Origin: Mariprofundus sp. NF
GTDB taxonomy: Bacteria; Pseudomonadota; Zetaproteobacteria; Mariprofundales; Mariprofundaceae
Assembly: GCF_013387455.1 (NCBI RefSeq)
Contig: NZ_VWNC01000004.1
Span: forward strand, 124,001 to 188,000
Length of the DNA: 64,000 bases
Direction: 5' to 3'
A program made the translations under genes and the position numbers. The notes under the pieces were generated by a model. It did not search any database, was not told the DNA's origin, and saw only the letters and a list, made by a program, of their open reading frames with translations. Positions 36,115 through 46,755 of this stretch are shown piece after piece; within the stretch, counting starts at the first letter, position 1; every line of letters starts with the position of its first letter.

Positions 36115-37110
36115 ATGAAATTTAAAACATGTATATTGGGTCTGGCAGGCTTTTTCCTTAGCGCCTCATTGACGTTTGCTGCGGCACCTGTCCCTGAGGT
36201 TGCCAAGGGTGTGCCAATCGATCCAACAAAGGGTTATGTCGTTGAAGAAATAAAAGATGGCCTCTATTGGGTGACCGAAGGTGCTTATACTGCAATGTTT
36301 CTTACAACGGGTAAGGGCGTTATTGTCGTTGACGCTCCACCGTCATTTGGTGACAAGATGTTGAAAGCGATAGCTGAGGTGACCAAAGAGCCGATTACAC
36401 ATGTGATATACAGCCATGCACATGCCGACCATATCGGTGGTGCAGGCATGTATCCAAAAAATGCAAAATATATCGCCCATGTTGAAACCAAAGAACGATT
36501 GCAGCGGGCGAACGATTCTAAGAGCCCTTTCCCATATGGCATGTTTGTGGGCGGAAAACCTGTGCCACTACCGACCAATACGTTTAAAGAAAGTTATACG
36601 TTGAAGGTCGGTAACCAAGTGTTGCAACTTGACTACAAAGGTGATGACCATGAACCGGGAAATATCTATGTGTATGCACCAAAGCAAAAAGTATTAATGA
36701 AAATAGATATTGTGTTTCCAGGCTGGTCACCATTTAAAGGGCTTGCGGTAGCAGAAGATGTTGTTGGATACCTGGATGCTCACGATGTTATTTTATCGTA
36801 TGACTTTGATAAATTGGTCTCTGGTCATTGGGGCCGCCTTGCCACTCGTAACGATGTAGAAGTACAAAAACAATACATGCAAGATATTCATGCCAATGCT
36901 GGTAAAGCATTACAAACGGTAGATTTTTATGCCATAGCCGGAAAAGTAGGTTATGCGAATACCAGTCTTTTGTTTGAAACTTATTTAGATGCAGTATCGC
37001 AAGAGTGTGCCAATCTCACTGAGCCAAAATGGATTGATAAACTTGGCGGCGTAGATGTCTGGACCAAAGATCACTGCTATAAAGTTATTATGGCTATTCG
37101 TATAGATTGA
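36115..37110 (+). CDS. Secreted MBL-fold metallohydrolase
   Basis: 331 residues. Residues 1-23 form a signal peptide ending LTFAAAP. The metal site is HAHADHIGGAG (His101, His103, Asp105, His106) with a third ligand His in GDDHEPGN (His179) and a later His in VSGHWG. This is a periplasmic MBL protein. Relatives include SoxH-like and quinoprotein-linked hydrolases, and the substrate is not readable. The C-terminal part carries Cys in SQECANL and DHCYK, possibly a disulfide. AAAGGAG lies before the ATG. The next gene starts 7 nt later. Confidence 0.86.
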   Translation: MKFKTCILGLAGFFLSASLTFAAAPVPEVAKGVPIDPTKGYVVEEIKDGLYWVTEGAYTAMFLTTGKGVIVVDAPPSFGDKMLKAIAEVTKEPITHVIYSHAHADHIGGAGMYPKNAKYIAHVETKERLQRANDSKSPFPYGMFVGGKPVPLPTNTFKESYTLKVGNQVLQLDYKGDDHEPGNIYVYAPKQKVLMKIDIVFPGWSPFKGLAVAEDVVGYLDAHDVILSYDFDKLVSGHWGRLATRNDVEVQKQYMQDIHANAGKALQTVDFYAIAGKVGYANTSLLFETYLDAVSQECANLTEPKWIDKLGGVDVWTKDHCYKVIMAIRID

Positions 37111-37519: not shown

Positions 37520-38155
37520 ATGAGTGATAAAATGACTTATGACGGCAAGGATATTTCAATTTCTTTTGATGGTAGCAAGTGTATTCATTCGCGAAATTGT
37601 GTGCTGGGTCTACCCAATGTGTTTCAAGCTAATGTTGAGGGCCCATGGATCAATCCAGATAACGCAACCTCAGAAGAGATTTTCGCGATTGCTCACGCCT
37701 GCCCATCTGGAGCTATTACGTTTGAGCGACATAATGGAGGGAGAGAGGAAACAGTACCTTTGGTCAACACACTGCATGTTCGCGAGAATGGCGCGTTGGC
37801 CATCCATGCTGACCTGACCATTGATGGAAAGAAGGATGGCTTTAGAGCCACGCTCTGTCGCTGCGGTGCATCAAAAAACAAACCTTATTGTGATGGTTCT
37901 CATCATGAGGTGCAATTCACTGCCTCAGGTGAAATGCCTGTTAAAGAATCCGAACCGCTTAAAGATCGGGATGGCGAGGTTGGTGTAACATCTCTCCCGG
38001 ATGGGCCATTACAGGTAGAAGGCAATCTTGAGGTTTGTTGTGGTACTGGCCGCACGATTGAACGAACGCAAAAGGCTTTCTTCTGTCGTTGTGGAGCATC
38101 AGGGAACAAGCCGTATTGCGATGGTAGTCATGTGAAAATTGGCTTTAAGGGCTAG
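37520..38155 (+). CDS. Ferredoxin-like plus double CDGSH iron-sulfur protein
   Basis: 211 residues with three iron-sulfur-type domains. Residues 15-70 match the divergent 4Fe-4S mono-cluster family (Cys21 and Cys27 in KCIHSRNC, Cys61 in HACPSGAI). Residues 113-128 and 189-204 are two CDGSH units of the form CRCGAS-x-NKPYCDGSH (Cys, Cys, Cys, His ligands for a [2Fe-2S] cluster). CDGSH clusters are redox-active and pH-sensitive and respond to oxidants or nitric oxide. The two CDGSH motifs are nearly identical, suggesting internal duplication. It may carry electrons for the cytochrome b561 or MBL partner (inference). Confidence 0.88.
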   Translation: MSDKMTYDGKDISISFDGSKCIHSRNCVLGLPNVFQANVEGPWINPDNATSEEIFAIAHACPSGAITFERHNGGREETVPLVNTLHVRENGALAIHADLTIDGKKDGFRATLCRCGASKNKPYCDGSHHEVQFTASGEMPVKESEPLKDRDGEVGVTSLPDGPLQVEGNLEVCCGTGRTIERTQKAFFCRCGASGNKPYCDGSHVKIGFKG

Positions 38156-38293: not shown

Positions 38294-38836
38294 ATGTCAG
38301 TTGATATAGCATGGTTGGGAAATCAAATATTGGGCAGGAATTTAAATGAAAAGGAGAGCACTCTTCTTGCAACAATAATCAGTGAAAAAACCTACGCCTC
38401 CGGAGAGACAATTATCTCTACAGGTCAGGAGGGTGGCGTGCTTCACATGATGCGCTCAGGCAGTGCAAACATAGAAGTTCTCAAGGATGGCGAGAAACCA
38501 CTTAAGGTGGCTGAGGTTGAGGCAGGGGAGCTGTTTGGGGAATTAACCTTTCTCAATAACAATCCAGCCACAGCTGATGTTGTAGCGACTCAGGATTGTG
38601 TGGTTTATAAGCTTCCCCGCGAACAGTTGGTCAGTGTAATCGATGAAGGGGAGGAGCAGCTTGCCTACCTGTTTTTCAGTTCCATTGTGGAGCGCCAAAC
38701 TAGTGTCATTCATGAGCAGCGAGTCACTCTGGCTCCAGAATTACGCAAACTGAACAATAAGGCAGTGCCGACGTTTGCCAAAGTTGGGATCGTGGCGGCT
38801 CTTATCGTCATAGTTTTGATTATCGCTTCTTCCTAA
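38294..38836 (+). CDS. cNMP-binding domain protein with C-terminal membrane anchor
   Basis: 180 residues. Residues 10-125 form a cyclic-nucleotide-binding fold (SGETIISTGQEGGVLHMMRSGSANIEV, then the phosphate-cassette-like AGELFGELTFLNNNPATADVVA). Canonical cassettes have an Arg in F-GE-x-A-L-x5-PRxA, but here the segment reads NNNPATA without that Arg, so tight cAMP binding is doubtful. A single C-terminal hydrophobic helix (about 161-178) anchors it. There is no DNA-binding domain. It lies upstream of the TetR-efflux-cyclase operon, which encodes a possible cyclase. Confidence 0.82.
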   Translation: MSVDIAWLGNQILGRNLNEKESTLLATIISEKTYASGETIISTGQEGGVLHMMRSGSANIEVLKDGEKPLKVAEVEAGELFGELTFLNNNPATADVVATQDCVVYKLPREQLVSVIDEGEEQLAYLFFSSIVERQTSVIHEQRVTLAPELRKLNNKAVPTFAKVGIVAALIVIVLIIASS

Positions 38837-38930: not shown

Positions 38931-38949
38931 TTTTTATGGTGAGGTGAAT

Positions 38950-39696
38950 ATGCAACGGCGAGAGAAGCGTGAACTGCGCGAAAAAGAGATTATTGAGAAA
39001 ACGATCAGGCTGCTATCACAGCGTGGTTTTCTTGATCTGCGTATGGCCGATATTGCCAAAGAGACCAGTTATTCGATGGGTACGATCTACTCTCACTTTG
39101 AGAGTAAAGAGGATCTGCTGGTGGCCTGTGCCTATGCACTGATTGTCGAGCACAAGGTGCTGTTTAACGCCATCGGCAGTCAGCCGATCTCTGCCATTGA
39201 GAAGATTATCACCACCGCCCAGTGCAGCTGGCAGATCTCCATGCGCCACCCCGATCTTATCGAGATCGACAACCTCTCACTGATGCCTTCGGTCTGGCGC
39301 AGGGCGACAAAACAGCGGGCGAATGAGTTGAACCAGCTGCATGTCGAGCTGGCGCAGCTCTTTCTCGGTCTCGTGCTTGAGGCGATTGAGACGAGTCTGG
39401 ATGGTTATGATCAGCTGGATAAAGAGCAGACCGAGCAGCTGGCCAATTACCTTACCCACGGCATGTGGGGCTTATGCGTGGGGCTCTCCAGTACCGCCCA
39501 ATCCGGTTATGCCAGCACACTCTGCCCGGATAGCGGTGATGAGAGTGACAGATATTTCGCCACCAACTACAGCAATTTCCTTAAGGGTTATGGCTGGCAG
39601 GAGGAGAATCCGGAAGCGGTCTTTGCGCAGTGCAAGGGTATCGCACAGGCGTGCATGGATCAGACCACCTGGTTCTCAAGCAGCAGGGAGCAGTAG
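38950..39696 (+). CDS. TetR-family regulator
   Basis: About 248 residues from ATG 38950 (a GTG two codons upstream is possible). The N-terminal helix-turn-helix reads IIEKTIRLLSQRGFLDLRMADIAKETSYSMGTIYSHFESKEDLL. The ligand-binding domain is long and contains several Cys. It is the first gene of the efflux operon, and the outer-membrane-factor gene begins 2 nt after its stop. It probably represses the pump until a toxic ligand binds. Confidence 0.9.
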   Translation: MQRREKRELREKEIIEKTIRLLSQRGFLDLRMADIAKETSYSMGTIYSHFESKEDLLVACAYALIVEHKVLFNAIGSQPISAIEKIITTAQCSWQISMRHPDLIEIDNLSLMPSVWRRATKQRANELNQLHVELAQLFLGLVLEAIETSLDGYDQLDKEQTEQLANYLTHGMWGLCVGLSSTAQSGYASTLCPDSGDESDRYFATNYSNFLKGYGWQEENPEAVFAQCKGIAQACMDQTTWFSSSREQ

Positions 39697-39698
39697 TC

Positions 39699-41192
39699 GT
39701 GAAAATAATGCCGAAAGCCATAACAGCAGCCGTTCTATCATTGTTCATCAGCGGTTGTGCGGTAGGGCCTGATTTTTCATCGCCTGCATCACCATCGGCG
39801 ACTAAATATTCCAATGAGTATCCTGAAGAGAGATCCGATGGCGCATCATCTCAAACAAAGCTGAAAGAGGCTGCTTCAATTCCGGCACTCTGGTGGCAGC
39901 TGTTTGAATCAGAAGCGCTGGAGCAGCTGGTAGCGCTCGGTCTGCAGCAGAGCCCGACCCTTGCCGCAGCCAAAGCCAGACTGAAAGCAGCAGAGGAGAC
40001 ATTCAGTGCCGATCACTCCTCGATTCTGTTTCCGGCCGTAGATGCCAGCCTGAACAGCTCACGTCAGAAGATATCAGGTGCAGCTTTTGGCAATGCCGGC
40101 AACGGCAGCCTGTTTACGGTGCACAATGCATCGGTTAATCTCAGTTACAGTATCGACCTGTTTGGTGGCGGCCAACGCTATCTGGAGTATGGATTGGCGC
40201 AGGTGGAGTTCGAGTCTTTCCAGTTGCAGGCGGCACGCATCACACTGGCCTCCAATATTGTCACAACTGCAATCAGTGAGGCATCCCTACGTCAGCAGAT
40301 AATAGCCCTGCAGGAGATTATCAACGCAGAGGCAGAGCAGCTGAAAGTAGCCGAACTGCAGTTTGAGATAGGGGTGATGGCCAAGGCAGATCTGTTAAGT
40401 CAGCGCACTGCTCTGGCTCAGACACGTACGCAACTACCTGCCCTGCAGAAGGCGCTGGCGCAGACCCGACATCAACTGGCAACACTGACCGGGCGACTAC
40501 CCGGAGAGGCGACTCTTCCCCAATTCACGCTTGGCGCATTGACCATGCCAAAAGAGATTCCGCTGACACTGCCCTCCAAATTGACGCGTCAGCGTCCGGA
40601 TGTGCGCGCTGCAGAGGCGGCACTGCATCAGGCCAGCGCACAGGTGGGTGTAGCTACGGCCAACCTCTATCCCAATATCGGCCTCTCAGGCAGTTATGGC
40701 ACAGAAGCGGTGAAGTTTGGTGATCTGTTCAGTGCCGGCACCGCAATCTGGGGGTTGGGTGCGGGTGTTCTGCAGCCACTATTCAGAGGCGGAGAACTTC
40801 ATGCCAGGAAACGGGCTGCAGTGGCAAAATATGAGCAGGCTGCAGCCGAATACCGCGCCAGTGTGCTCAGCGCATTTCAGGATGTGGCCGATGCGCTGTT
40901 GGCCCTTGAGATGGATGGCAGACAGCTGGAGCTGCAGAAGCAGTCGGAGCAGATGGCATCAGAGTCACTGGATCTGGTGACACTGCAACATAAACACGGG
41001 GCGGTAAGTTCGCTCACCCTGCTTAATGCTCAGCAGCAGTATCAACAGTCACGCATCAGCCTGATTCAGGCACGCGCAACCCTTTATGCCGACACTGCCG
41101 CGCTGATGTATGCACTCGGAGGTGGCTGGTGGGACCCGCAGGGTGATCAGCCCACCCAAACAGACAGGAACAATTCGGAGAAACAGTTATGA
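39699..41192 (+). CDS. RND-type outer membrane lipoprotein factor (NodT/OprM family)
   Basis: About 497 residues. The N-terminal signal ends with the lipobox LFISGC, so the mature protein is a lipoprotein. Repeated TolC-like coiled-coil regions (ALGLQQSPTLAAAKARLKAAEETF, QRPDVRAAEAALHQASAQVGVATANLYPNIGLSGSYG) make the trans-periplasmic tunnel. GTG 39699 is favoured because it gives a Lys-rich n-region, and the ATG 9 nt later is the alternative. It partners with the adaptor and RND pump just downstream. Confidence 0.9.
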   Translation: MKIMPKAITAAVLSLFISGCAVGPDFSSPASPSATKYSNEYPEERSDGASSQTKLKEAASIPALWWQLFESEALEQLVALGLQQSPTLAAAKARLKAAEETFSADHSSILFPAVDASLNSSRQKISGAAFGNAGNGSLFTVHNASVNLSYSIDLFGGGQRYLEYGLAQVEFESFQLQAARITLASNIVTTAISEASLRQQIIALQEIINAEAEQLKVAELQFEIGVMAKADLLSQRTALAQTRTQLPALQKALAQTRHQLATLTGRLPGEATLPQFTLGALTMPKEIPLTLPSKLTRQRPDVRAAEAALHQASAQVGVATANLYPNIGLSGSYGTEAVKFGDLFSAGTAIWGLGAGVLQPLFRGGELHARKRAAVAKYEQAAAEYRASVLSAFQDVADALLALEMDGRQLELQKQSEQMASESLDLVTLQHKHGAVSSLTLLNAQQQYQQSRISLIQARATLYADTAALMYALGGGWWDPQGDQPTQTDRNNSEKQL

Positions 41193-42316
41193 AAAAACGC
41201 ATGATTTGGATGGTAGCTATCGTCGGTTTCGTATTTGCAGCGATTATCGGCTATCAGATGTTTGTGGCCAGTATGATGAAACAGTTTCTGGCCTCCAATG
41301 CCCAGCCACCAGCCACGGTGACCGCTACACAGGTGAAAGCTGAAGCGTGGCAGCCACAGTTGGCGTCGGTGGGAACACTGCGGGCTATTCAGGGGGTAGA
41401 GATCAGTGCCGAGATTGCTGGTCTGGTCAAAAAGGTGCATTTCAGATCGGGTGATGAGGTGAAAAAGGGTGATCTTCTGCTCGAGATGAACAGTGATGAA
41501 GAGGCTGCACAGCTGCTGGCGCTGAAGGCCAACCGCAAACTGGCTGAGATCAATCTCAAACGTGATGAGCAGCAGTTCAAGGTACATGCCATCAGCAATT
41601 CAAAACTGGATGCATCCAAAGCAGAGTTAAGTAGCAGGCGCGCAGCAGAGCAGCAGCAGCAGGCGATCATCGATAAAAAACGGATTCGTGCCCCCTTTGC
41701 CGGGCGACTCGGAATCACTCAGATCAATCCGGGCCAGTATCTGAACCCTGCAGAGCGCATTGTTACGTTGCAGAACGGGCGGGCACTGTATATCGATTTC
41801 AGTATGCCACAAAAATATGTAACGCAGTTGCAGAAGGGGCAGACCATAAGTGTTGATACAGGCAACGGTGCGCAGGCGATCAGCGGAACGATTAGCACCA
41901 TCAACAGTGTTGTTGATAACAGTACGCGTAATGTGCAGGTCGAGGGGTTGATTGATAACAGTAGTGGCGCGCTGCTGCCCGGCATGTTTGTCAATGTGAC
42001 TATTGATATCGGAGCACCGCAAAATCTGCTGACCCTGCCGCAGACCGCAATCAGCTTTAACGCCTACGGCTCCACCCTGTTTGTGGCCAGAGAGGAGCAG
42101 GGCGCTGAAGAGGGTGAAACGCAACTGGTGGCACAGCAGCTGTTTGTTAAAACCGGTGACAAACGTGGTGATCAGGTGGCCATTATTGAGGGGTTGAAGG
42201 AAGGTGAGACTGTTGTCACCTCCGGTCAGTTGAAGCTGAAGAACGGTACGCCGCTGATTATCAATAATGAGGTGCTGCCAGCCAATGAGTCGGCGCCAAA
42301 ACCGCAGGAGAAGTAG
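41189..42316 (+). CDS. RND efflux periplasmic adaptor subunit
   Basis: 375 residues, HlyD/AcrA-type membrane fusion protein. An uncleaved N-terminal anchor (about 6-26) is followed by lipoyl halves (VEISAEIAGLVKKVHFRSGDEVKKGDLLLEMN and IRAPFAGRLGITQINPGQYL), a helical hairpin between them, and beta-barrel and membrane-proximal domains. It links the inner-membrane RND pump to the outer-membrane factor. ATGA overlap with the upstream gene. Confidence 0.93.
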   Translation: MKKRMIWMVAIVGFVFAAIIGYQMFVASMMKQFLASNAQPPATVTATQVKAEAWQPQLASVGTLRAIQGVEISAEIAGLVKKVHFRSGDEVKKGDLLLEMNSDEEAAQLLALKANRKLAEINLKRDEQQFKVHAISNSKLDASKAELSSRRAAEQQQQAIIDKKRIRAPFAGRLGITQINPGQYLNPAERIVTLQNGRALYIDFSMPQKYVTQLQKGQTISVDTGNGAQAISGTISTINSVVDNSTRNVQVEGLIDNSSGALLPGMFVNVTIDIGAPQNLLTLPQTAISFNAYGSTLFVAREEQGAEEGETQLVAQQLFVKTGDKRGDQVAIIEGLKEGETVVTSGQLKLKNGTPLIINNEVLPANESAPKPQEK

Positions 42317-42317
42317 G

Positions 42318-44309
42318 GTGCGCTACACCGATATCTTTATCCGCAAGCCTGTGCTGGCGACCACTATCAGTCTGCTGCTGCTGGTGCTGGGCATGCAGGC
42401 GATCATGAACATGTCGATCCGCCAGTATCCGGAGACGCAGAATGCTGTGGTGACCGTGAGTACGGTCTATTACGGTGCTGATGCAGAGACCATTTCAGGT
42501 TTTATTACCCAGCCGCTGGAGACCGCCATTGCCCAGGCTGAAGGGATCGATTATCTCTCATCAGTCAGTGTCAGTGGTGCCTCAACCATCAGTGCCACCC
42601 TGCGCCTGAACCATGACTCCAATCGGGCGCTGACTGATATCAATGCCAAGGTGAATGCGGTGCTTAATCAGCTGCCTGCTGAAGCGCAGCAGCCGGTACT
42701 CACCGTGCAGGTGGGTGAAACCATTGATTCGATGTACATGGGTTTCTTCAGTGATGTGTTGCCCAATAACAATGTCACCGACTATCTGTTGCGGGTGGTT
42801 AAACCACAGCTTGATGGTATTGAGGGTGTACAGCGTGCTGAGATTATCGGCGCACGCCAGTTTGCCCTGCGTGCATGGCTGGATCCGGCGCGTATGGCGG
42901 CCTACGGCATCTCAGCGACTGAGGTCTACGGGGCACTGGCAGCCAATAACTATCTGGCAGCCCTTGGCAGCAGTAAGGGGCAGATGGTCAGTGTCGATCT
43001 CAATGCTGCGACCAGCCTGCACTCGGTGGAGGAGTTCAAGCGACTGGCGATACGTGAGAAGGATGGTGCGATTGTACGGCTGGAGGATATCGCCAATGTC
43101 GTGCTGGGAGCCGAAGACTATAATCTGGCGACAGCCTTTGATGGCGACAAATCGGTATTTGTCGGTATCAAGGTGGCACCGGATGCCAATGTGCTGGAGG
43201 TGGTCCAGCGTGTACGTGATGCATTCCCGGCGATTCAGGGGCAGATGCCCAACGGCCTGAGCGGCAAGATTGTTTATGACGGCACCAAATTTATCCAAAG
43301 CTCGATTGATGAGGTGGTCAAAACCCTGTTTGAGGCACTGCTGATTGTGGCGCTGGTGGTGTTCATCTTTCTGGGCAACTGGCGGGCAGTGGTGGTGCCG
43401 CTGGTGGCCATTCCACTCTCTCTGATTGGTGCATTTTTCATGATGCAGATGCTGGGTTACACCATCAATCTGCTTACCCTGCTCTCACTGGTACTGGCTA
43501 TCGGACTGGTGGTGGATGATGCCATTATTATTGTCGAGAACGTGGATCGACACATGCATGATGAGGGTAAAAGTCCGTTTGAAGCGGCGATTATGGCGGC
43601 GCGCGAGCTTGGTGGACCGATTATCGCCATGACGGTTGTTTTGATTGCAGCCTATGTGCCGATCGGTTTTCAGGGTGGTCTGACCGGCGCACTGTTTACC
43701 GAGTTCGCCTTCACCCTTGCCGGTGCTGTGACCATCTCCGGTATCGTGGCACTGACACTCTCGCCAATGATGACCTCCAAACTGTTCAAACCCAAACAGC
43801 AAGAGTCCGGACTGGTTGAGTTTATTAATCGTCAGTTCTCTCGCCTGCATGGCAGTTATCAGCGTCGCCTGACCGGCACACTGGAGACCTGGCCGGTGAT
43901 GGTGGTGATGGGCGGGCTGCTGCTGGTCGGTGTCGTTTACCTCTTTGCCACCTCCAAGGCTGAATTGGCACCGGAAGAGGATCAGGGCATTGTCATGGCG
44001 CATCTGGTGGGTGCACCCAATGCCACCGCACAGCAGATGGCTGTTTATGCCGATCAGGCTTATAAACTGGCACGTGATCTGCCTGAATATGATCAGATGT
44101 TCCAGCTCACCGGCATTCCAACCACCAATCAGGGCATGGGCGGTGTACTGTTTAAACCGTGGGATGAGCGGAATCGTAGCGCAGCTGAACTACAGCAGGT
44201 TCTGGAGCACGATTGCCGGTGCGCGAGTGGCCGCCTTCCAGTTTCCCGCACTACCCGGTTCAGGTGGCCTGCCACTGCAGTTTGTGATCAAAACGACCGA
44301 ATCCTTTGA
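42318..44309 (+). pseudogene. RND multidrug efflux permease, N-terminal part (frameshifted)
   Basis: This open frame covers about the first two-thirds of a HAE1-type RND pump (AcrB/MdtB group). It starts at GTG 42318 (MRYTDIFIRKPVLATTIS). The N-terminal half includes the transmembrane charged-relay region GLVVDDAIIIVENVDRHM (Asp-Asp). The homologous sequence runs to about 44210 (LFKPWDERNRSAAELQQVLE), after which this frame becomes nonsense and ends at 44309. The rest of the pump is encoded one frame over (see 44164-45384). A net shift of +1 or -2 nt near 44205-44225 explains this. A sequencing or assembly error or a recent mutation are both possible. Confidence 0.85.
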
Positions 44310-45384
44310 GAACCTCAATGAGATTGTCGGTAAGGTGCTGGCCAAGGCGCAGGCCAGTGGCATGTTCTTCTTTATCGATTCCGATCTGAAGATCGATAAA
44401 CCACAGAGCACGCTGGTGGTGGATCGTGATATGGCCACCGATCTGGGGCTGACTCAGCAGGATATCGGTGCCGCACTCGGTGCTGCCCTTGGTGGTGGTT
44501 ATGTGAACTACTTCGCCATCGGTGGCCGCTCATACCGGGTGATGCCGCAGGTGGCACAGGAGTTCAGGCTCAATCCCGAGCAGGTGCTCGATTATCAGAT
44601 TCGCATTCCATCCGGTGAGATGATCGCTGCATCTACATTTGCCTCGATCACGCATGAGGTAGTGCCGGAGTCGATCAACCGTTTCCAGCAGCTCAATTCA
44701 GCCACCATCTCCGGTGTCTATGCGCCGGGTGTATCCCAGCAGCAGGTGCTCTCGTTTATGCAGCAGGCGCTTAATGAAGCTGCACCGGCCGGTTATAACC
44801 CCGATTATGCAGGCCCATCGCGCCAGTATATGCAGGAGTCCGGCGGTTTTGTCTTTACCATGCTGTTTGCCATCGTGATTGTCTTTCTGGCACTGGCGAT
44901 CCAGTTCAACAGTTTCCGTGATCCGCTGGTGATTCTGGTCTCTGTGCCGCTGGCACTGCTCGGCGCACTGCTGTTTATCAATGTCGGCCTTGCTTCAATC
45001 AATATCTATACGCAGGTGGGGCTGGTGACGTTGATGGGTTTGATCAGTAAACACGGCATTCTGATGGTGCAGTTTGCCAATGAGCTGCAGCTGCAGGGTC
45101 GATCAAAACTTGATGCGATTATTGAGGCTTCATCTGTACGTCTGCGTCCGATCCTGATGACCACTGCTGCGATGGTGCTGGGTGTGTTGCCACTGGTGCT
45201 GGCCAGTGGTGCCGGTGCAGCGGGTCGCTACTCGATGGGACTGGTGATCTTTACCGGCCTCTCCATCGGCACGCTGTTTACCCTGTTTGTGGTGCCTGCT
45301 GTCTACGTGCTGCTGGCTAAAGACCGAACGGCTGAGGTGGTGAGCAGTGAAGAGGAGTTAAATCTTGCGGAGAAGCTGGCATGA
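44164..45384 (+). pseudogene. RND multidrug efflux permease, C-terminal part (frameshifted)
   Basis: The C-terminal third of the same pump, in a different frame. True homology begins near 44214 (TIAGARVAAFQFPALPGSGGLPLQFVIKT) and includes the membrane helices with LVTLMGLISKHGILMVQFANELQ, RLRPILMTTAAMVLGVLPLVLASG and the usual end. ATG 44164 is only a possible in-frame start and does not have a ribosome binding site of note. The coding quality on both sides of the break is good, so the gene looked intact until very recently. It overlaps the cyclase gene by ATGA. Confidence 0.85.
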
Positions 45385-46292
45385 GCCATATCTATTCGGA
45401 GAGTGATCAAAAGCGTATTGAGGTGGCAGATCGGGATACGATTTTAGCCTCATCGCTAAAGGCAGGCATCAACCATACTCACGCTTGCGGTGGCAATGCC
45501 CGCTGCTCCACCTGCCGGGTGCATGTGGTTGAAGGGCTACAGCATTGCCAGCCGAGAAATGGTGCGGAAGAGAAGATGAAGCAGTCGCTCAACTTTCCTG
45601 ATGATATCCGTCTTGCCTGTCAGACCAGGATCACGGGTGATATCAAAATCCGTCGCTTGGTTGTCGATGATCTGGACAGACAGATCATCAGCGATCAATT
45701 GGCCAGCCATGATGAGAACTCACTGGGTCGGGAGAAGGATATTGCGGTGCTGTTTACCGATCTGGCCAACTACACCGCATTTGCCGAATCACTGCCTGCC
45801 TATGATGTGGTGCATGTGCTGAATCGTTATTACATGACGATGAATGACATCGTGACCAAATATGGTGGTGTGATCAGTGATGTGGCCGGCGATGGTATGT
45901 TGATCCTCTTTGGTGCCTGCAAGAAAGAGGATGGCTTGGTGCTTGATGCGATCCGCACGGTGCAGGCGATGCGCAAAGAGCTGAGCGTTTTTAACACCTA
46001 TCTTGAGAGTATGTATGGCCGCTCATTCGGATTAAGGGCGGGCATCCACTATGGATCGGCCATTATCGGCCATTTCAGTACCGGCCCGATGAGTAAGGTG
46101 GCAGCCATTGGTGATACCGTGAATCTGGCGGCCCGGATTGAACAGGCGAACAAACAGTTCGGTTCCCAACTGCTGATCTCGGAAGCGGCCTACCAACAGG
46201 TGGCTGGTGAGATAGAGCAGATCGGCTGCCATGAGGCGCAGCTGAAAGGCAAAACCGGTAGCTACGCGCTCTATGAGATTGAGCTGATCTAG
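45381..46292 (+). CDS. [2Fe-2S] ferredoxin-class III nucleotidyl cyclase fusion
   Basis: 303 residues in two domains. Residues 1-95 are a plant-type [2Fe-2S] ferredoxin: Cys36, Cys42 and Cys45 (ACGGNARCSTCRVHVVEG) plus Cys80 in RLACQTRI. Residues 118-300 are a class III adenylate/guanylate cyclase catalytic domain with both metal Asp residues (FTDLANYTAF, Asp127; SDVAGDGMLILFG, Asp171) and AAIGDTVNLAARIEQANK. The product is likely cAMP, or cGMP, controlled by the cluster's redox state. The start overlaps the RND stop (ATGA), so it is translated with the efflux genes. There is no membrane segment, so it is cytoplasmic. Confidence 0.88.
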   Translation: MSHIYSESDQKRIEVADRDTILASSLKAGINHTHACGGNARCSTCRVHVVEGLQHCQPRNGAEEKMKQSLNFPDDIRLACQTRITGDIKIRRLVVDDLDRQIISDQLASHDENSLGREKDIAVLFTDLANYTAFAESLPAYDVVHVLNRYYMTMNDIVTKYGGVISDVAGDGMLILFGACKKEDGLVLDAIRTVQAMRKELSVFNTYLESMYGRSFGLRAGIHYGSAIIGHFSTGPMSKVAAIGDTVNLAARIEQANKQFGSQLLISEAAYQQVAGEIEQIGCHEAQLKGKTGSYALYEIELI

Positions 46293-46300
46293 TTGATCTT

Positions 46301-46588
46301 TTAACTTTTGGTGTTGGCGGCTATCTCACGCGTAGCCTGCCAGCCCTGTTTAGCCTTCTCGCCACTCCACTGGGCAGCATCTTCAGCTGCTTCGCTGGTC
46401 ACGTGCCAAGCTGAGCGCGATTTCTCTACAGTCCAGTCGACCACATCAGAGGCAAAGGATTTGGTGCTCTGCCATGCCGAGTCTGCGGTCACTTTCGTCT
46501 TCGCCCACATATCCTCTTCGGCAGCCGCGATCTGCGGTGCATTCATCAATCCAAAAATCATCAGGGAAACAATCACTAATTTTTTCAT
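46301..46588 (-). CDS. Secreted helical-repeat protein, LEA-like
   Basis: About 95 residues from ATG 46588 (well spaced from GGAGGT). An N-terminal signal peptide (MKKLVIVSLMIFGLMNAPQIAAAEE) precedes about 70 residues of amphipathic helix with a recurring spacing of about 20 residues: W-x-K-T/S...W-x-x-T-K...W-T-V-E-K-S...W-x-x-T/S...W-S-G-E-K-A...W-x-A-T. It has regularly spaced Trp and Ala and many charged residues. I do not recognise a function. It looks like a late-embryogenesis-type or envelope stress protein. It converges on the cyclase gene. Confidence 0.75.
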   Translation of the reverse strand: MKKLVIVSLMIFGLMNAPQIAAAEEDMWAKTKVTADSAWQSTKSFASDVVDWTVEKSRSAWHVTSEAAEDAAQWSGEKAKQGWQATREIAANTKS

Positions 46589-46755
46589 GCCTAGACCTCC
46601 AATCAATCGGTTCAACCCGATTGCTAAGGAGGAGTCTATTTCGTATCAGTGTTGGCGATCACATTGGTGATTCAGCCAGAGCCCAAGGAGATTGAGGGGG
46701 GGGGATGGCTGAAGTCGGCCAAAACGGACGTTCGAGGCTAATGCCCATAGGTATT

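Follow-up and report, generated by a model that had tools for sequence, protein, structure and literature searches.

One open reading frame in the genome of Mariprofundus sp. NF (2.53 Mb, 24 contigs) encodes a ferredoxin domain (Fer2) fused to a class III nucleotide cyclase and begins within the end of an RND efflux operon. The original prediction took this arrangement for a circuit in which a redox cluster controls the synthesis of cAMP or cGMP in connection with drug efflux. Two questions arise: which nucleotide such a protein would make, and whether the pump has anything to do with it. The relevant features of the window, the whole 64,000-nucleotide stretch of DNA analyzed here, are as follows.

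38294-38836, + strand: protein with a cNMP_binding domain and a hydrophobic helix at its C terminus, just before tetR
38944-39696, + strand: regulator of the TetR family, with which the pump operon begins
39630-41192, + strand: outer membrane efflux protein (OEP) of the NodT family, TIGR01845; translation probably starts downstream of 39630
41189-42316, + strand: RND membrane fusion protein (MFP), HlyD_D23
42267-44309, + strand: N-terminal fragment of the frameshifted RND permease, ACR_tran profile positions 3-638
43930-45384, + strand: open reading frame that includes the C-terminal portion of the RND permease, with homology from about 44206, profile positions 645-1020
44200-44201, + strand: point at which 11 bp are missing in comparison with the related genomes G015 and G011, which breaks the RND frame
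45381-45384, + strand: ATGA overlap between the cyclase start and the stop of the RND C-terminal frame
45381-46292, + strand: Fer2-class III cyclase fusion (Fer2, residues 1-88; conserved linker, 89-101; variable segment, 102-115; cyclase, 116-303)

Domain structure of the fusion protein

The frame encodes 303 amino acids. Pfam profiles placed Fer2 at residues 9-85 (E = 2e-11, 44.1 bits against a cut-off of 21) and Guanylate_cyc at residues 118-292 (E = 9e-16, 58.5 bits against a cut-off of 21.9). This bears out the predicted fusion, as do the four cluster cysteines (Cys36, Cys42, Cys45 and Cys80, spaced C-X5-C-X2-C-X34-C), the two metal-binding aspartates of the cyclase domain (D127 and D171) and the overlap of the start with the preceding stop, all of which were found as expected. 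The ferredoxin domain had been described as plant-type and here a correction is needed: it scored 36.8 bits with the fdx_isc profile versus 17.5 with fdx_plant, and its matches in the PDB were an adrenodoxin homologue, E. coli Fdx and putidaredoxin. By these comparisons it is nearer to the ISC/adrenodoxin-type than to the plant-type ferredoxins.

The AlphaFold model had a mean pLDDT of 88.4, with each domain confidently predicted and residues 102-114 loose. No 6TM anchor precedes Fer2 in the protein, which begins at that domain and is modeled as two globular domains and a linker only. Foldseek matched the cyclase part to CyaC (1wc1/1wc3), Cya2 (2w01) and CyaB (3r5g) with target-normalised TM scores of approximately 0.83-0.88. 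In structure the catalytic domain matched CyaC of Spirulina platensis (1wc0-1wc6) best, a canonical adenylate cyclase whose solved chains, unlike the window protein, contain no Fer2; comparison of sequence and structure with the PDB found no solved structure holding both domains. The Pfam domain, the matching fold, the metal aspartates and the transition-state residues N248 and R252 together place the protein among class III cyclases. The dN/dS values of the gene against two relatives were 0.13 and 0.10, and it is therefore under purifying selection.

A widespread family with a conserved linker

A scan of GTDB, with an alignment of zetaproteobacterial members, gave 158 relatives, of which 80 were kept; the scan favours proteins that resemble the query. 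The retained relatives came from Zetaproteobacteria, Desulfobacterales and their allies, Bacteroidota, Cyanobacteriota, Chloroflexota, Nitrosomonadales/Gallionellaceae, Acidobacteriota and Planctomycetota. The family to which the window protein belongs, with members of about 300 amino acids, is widespread among bacteria and has been little studied. Our literature search, which most subscription papers lay outside, found no description of this soluble Fer2-cyclase family, only of the membrane-anchored cluster discussed below.

In an alignment of 58 sequences from many phyla (A2) the four cysteines, D127, D171, N248 and R252 were invariant, and so were D96 and D99 of the linker; R91 and R92, also in the linker, were kept in more than 90% of the same sequences. 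Overall, the linker (residues 89-101) was as conserved as the two domains (0.605 versus 0.611 and 0.591). Conservation of R91, R92, D96 and D99 is what would be expected if Fer2 signals to the cyclase.

Ferredoxin-type class IIIb cyclases have been described as a membrane-anchored cluster, cluster 1 (PMC4821796). Members such as CyaC of Sinorhizobium meliloti and Q132R4 of Rhodopseudomonas palustris have the same order of Fer2 followed by cyclase as the window protein, and those examined have the four cysteines and the catalytic residues in common with it. They differ from it by their 6TM anchor, which resembles cytochrome b and is diheme in CyaC, and almost all of the relatives examined have the adenine-selecting lysine where the window protein has Asp. 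CyaC from S. meliloti is under redox control; its anchor binds two hemes b, and the protein is depicted with a [2Fe-2S] cluster (PMC10463352).

The tie between redox cluster and cyclase drawn in the original prediction is a reasonable one, because the linker is conserved to the same degree as the domains and the CyaC relative is redox regulated. The protein would consist of an N-terminal ISC/adrenodoxin-like domain binding a [2Fe-2S] cluster, the short conserved linker and a class III cyclase domain acting as a homodimer. The redox state of the cluster, or its presence, probably alters the linker in such a way that the cyclase dimer opens or closes. Instead of acting as a sensor, Fer2 could donate electrons or have a structural role. 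With moderate confidence we favour a soluble, stand-alone cyclase gated by its [2Fe-2S] domain, which likely makes cGMP and whose position behind the RND operon is specific to its lineage.

The substrate pocket and the likely product

The canonical adenylate cyclase pair, Lys with Asp or Thr, is absent from the window protein: the substrate-Lys position is occupied by Asp167 and the paired position by Ala241. As the lysine has given way to Asp and its partner to Ala (Ser or Thr in related proteins), ATP is probably not the substrate. The original prediction, which was silent on the missing lysine, had left the product as cAMP or cGMP; judged from these residues, the second is probable and the first is not.

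The PDB sequence nearest to the cyclase domain is the guanylyl cyclase Cya2 of Synechocystis (2w01). Cya2 is a protein with a CHASE2 membrane sensor and, in contrast to the window protein, no ferredoxin domain. D167 aligns with its Glu and Ala241 with its Gly, both pairs being composed of an acidic and a small residue. In the 6fht chimera the former position is Lys, which matches E488K, an exchange that confers adenylate cyclase activity on Cya2 (PMC5995499). Guanylyl cyclases have Glu together with one of C/S/T/H/A/G at the second site (PMC4215837). Ala241 fits the second site; the first is Asp, not Glu. Given the Glu and small-residue pair of Cya2 and other guanylyl cyclases, Asp with Ala, Ser or Thr resembles the pocket of a guanylyl cyclase in which the acidic side chain is shorter. 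We found in the literature no known guanylyl cyclase with Asp instead of Glu at this site, and the use of GTP is for that reason an extrapolation. An acidic side chain at residue 167 would suit bases that carry an imide N-H, which makes conversion of GTP to cGMP likeliest, with UTP to cUMP as the main alternative. On this basis the protein probably makes cGMP and not cAMP, and cUMP is a live alternative.

We then compared position 167 in 88 sequences and found Asp in 49, Asn in 23, Lys in 10, Val in 5 and Ser in 1; residue 241 was Ala, Ser or Thr. The sequences with Lys were those of the membrane-anchored relatives and of a sister zetaproteobacterial group, together with L049, another relative. 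In a tree built without columns 167 and 241, a quick tree with some long branches, all Asp sequences (48 of the 87 included) formed one clade with an SH-aLRT of 97, and four changes at residue 167 were needed. Soluble relatives outside this clade have mostly Asn or Val. The Asn and Val subgroups show that the site is variable, which might reflect relaxed specificity instead of a switch to GTP. The NF genome itself encodes eight cyclases and only this one has Asp at the substrate-Lys site. Another of the eight (L004, G000:C8:77986-78483) has Glu/Ala, a guanylyl-cyclase-like substrate pair.

Retention of the metal and transition-state residues would be consistent with an ordinary class III cyclase that forms cAMP despite the change from Lys to Asp, and there are class III enzymes, such as Rv1900c of M. 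tuberculosis, that still make cAMP although their substrate residues are unusual. Unlike Lys, however, Asp is no donor for adenine N1, and Lys is kept in the membrane-anchored Fer2-cyclases and the sister zetaproteobacterial group but lost throughout the Asp167 clade. Moreover, replacement of substrate residues in Ma1120 lowered adenylate cyclase activity and raised guanylyl cyclase activity (PMC4215837). We regard cAMP synthesis as unlikely.

A similarly low probability was given to a pyrimidine cyclase, making cUMP (or cCMP) in the manner of Pycsar PycC, with a housekeeping or defence role. PycC has the class III fold with non-purine substrate residues, and PADLOC models of PycC matched the catalytic domain of the window protein, with 77 bits for the best. 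The imide N-H is common to uracil and guanine and in both can pair with Asp, and the residues Y50, D94 and R97, which recognise UTP in BcPycC, include an Asp (PMC11224242), likened to D167 by residue type only. However, the PycC models also mirror general class III similarity, and we read the PADLOC matches in this way because no effector partner recurs: no adjacent effector gene was found here, and clusters of neighbouring genes, inspected without an effector-model scan of each, showed no PycTM or PycTIR partner recurring beside the family. In overall sequence the family is nearer to purine cyclases, and in sequence and fold it is nearer to Cya2, CyaC and CyaB.

The altered substrate site could also point to a pseudo-enzyme, in which the cyclase fold is a nucleotide-binding or dimerisation module and Fer2, as an electron donor, is the working part. 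Clustering of neighbouring genes gave no partner or receptor gene conserved with the family, only lineage-specific sets or large promiscuous families, which would agree with such a role. Against it, the metal aspartates and the transition-state N248/R252 are kept although the substrate lysine is lost, and an inactive fold needs none of the catalytic residues that are invariant in all 58 sequences across many phyla. A pseudo-enzyme is thus very unlikely.

Returning to the redox-gated enzyme with cGMP as the likely product, we put forward a broader proposal tentatively, as possible but somewhat short of probable: that soluble [2Fe-2S]-gated class III cyclases without the adenine-selecting lysine are widespread in Pseudomonadota, Thermodesulfobacteriota, Bacteroidota, Cyanobacteriota, Chloroflexota, Acidobacteriota and Planctomycetota, where the redox or Fe-S status of the cytoplasm would prompt them to make a signal other than cAMP (cGMP or cUMP). 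Few bacterial guanylyl cyclases are known experimentally, and the Fe-S-linked cyclases described in the literature searched are of the membrane-bound CyaC type only. If the soluble family does make cGMP or cUMP under [2Fe-2S] control, it would represent a common, overlooked redox signalling enzyme found from strict anaerobes to cyanobacteria. The proposal could be tested with one small soluble protein, and if true it would caution against annotating such genes as adenylate cyclases.

Gene order and the efflux pump

The order tetR-OEP-MFP-RND-cyclase was kept in G015, which is of the same genus and the nearest relative as regards this gene, and in G011, and the arrangement of cyclase and pump is conserved in three Mariprofundus species. 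Together with the ATGA overlap, this would be expected of the predicted redox-cAMP/cGMP circuit coupled to efflux. The pump operon, however, is found without the cyclase: orthologs of tetR (69-84% identity) are present in eight further genomes of the family, and no cyclase follows the pump in G007, G020, G019, G028, G010 and G005, at loci all readable to the end of the pump. G020 is an empty site, in which the pump is directly followed by the small gene that comes after the cyclase in the window. This small gene (46301-46670) is probably on the opposite strand, and its counterpart in G015 opens with a likely signal peptide.

Other orthologs of the cyclase stand in unrelated contexts. In G007 the gene lies behind a Memo/AMMECR1/radical SAM cluster (L042:8894-11353, directly upstream), in G038 behind a putative TatD-like gene (assigned by reading the sequence) and in G008 behind a CDGSH/glutamate-synthase-domain gene. 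The G008 gene (L041:6152-7711), directly upstream of the cyclase ortholog, encodes CDGSH fused to a glutamate synthase-like FMN domain. Among the 80 GTDB loci, at least 66 of which had 2 kb or more of upstream sequence, an RND profile match near the Fer2-cyclase was found in only one, that of Mariprofundus sp. KV. Coupling to the pump as a trait of the family was rejected on this count; outside the three close Mariprofundus species the gene has other neighbours.

One locus keeps the efflux idea alive. In G014, another Mariprofundus, a distant sister Fer2-cyclase with the canonical Lys/Thr pair follows a different RND operon at a distance of 386 bp (L048:1428-8388); with about six RND genes per genome this is above chance, though the comparison was made post hoc.

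The pump itself is not intact in this genome. The permease is a single gene of 1041/1042 codons in G015 and G011 and is divided between two frames in the window: alignment to these genomes showed that 11 bases are missing near 44200 and that the frame breaks after approximately residue 645. The deletion may be a true mutation, which would make the permease a pseudogene, or an assembly error. The downstream frame contains no further stops; the deletion, if real, is therefore recent.

The proposed receiver of the signal is the cNMP-binding protein encoded at 38294-38836, 7 kb upstream of the cyclase. Its location just before tetR and its hydrophobic C-terminal helix were confirmed, and its role was not. 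The phosphate cassette reads PATADV where PRSATV is usual, so that the phosphate-binding Arg is replaced by Ala, and a paralogue in the same genome retains the Arg. The protein is not found beside the operon in G015 or G011, and on both counts it was rejected as the receiver. Since 17 cNMP-domain matches, in about 15 proteins, were counted in the genome, the presence of one within 7 kb is unremarkable.

Taken together, these data make the efflux circuit most improbable, and the predicted tie to drug efflux largely fails. Since relatives carry the pump operon without the cyclase and the cyclase in other contexts, their juxtaposition is most simply explained as a lineage-specific, recent and local event in a few Mariprofundus species, with loss elsewhere possible. 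The RND operon would at most lend its promoter to the stand-alone cyclase. A scan for promoters and terminators gave counts not above those in shuffled sequences.

Farther upstream, the region at 37520-38155 encodes a divergent 4Fe-4S mono-cluster domain (Fer4_19) together with CDGSH motifs and adjoins a metallo-beta-lactamase-fold gene at 36115-37110.
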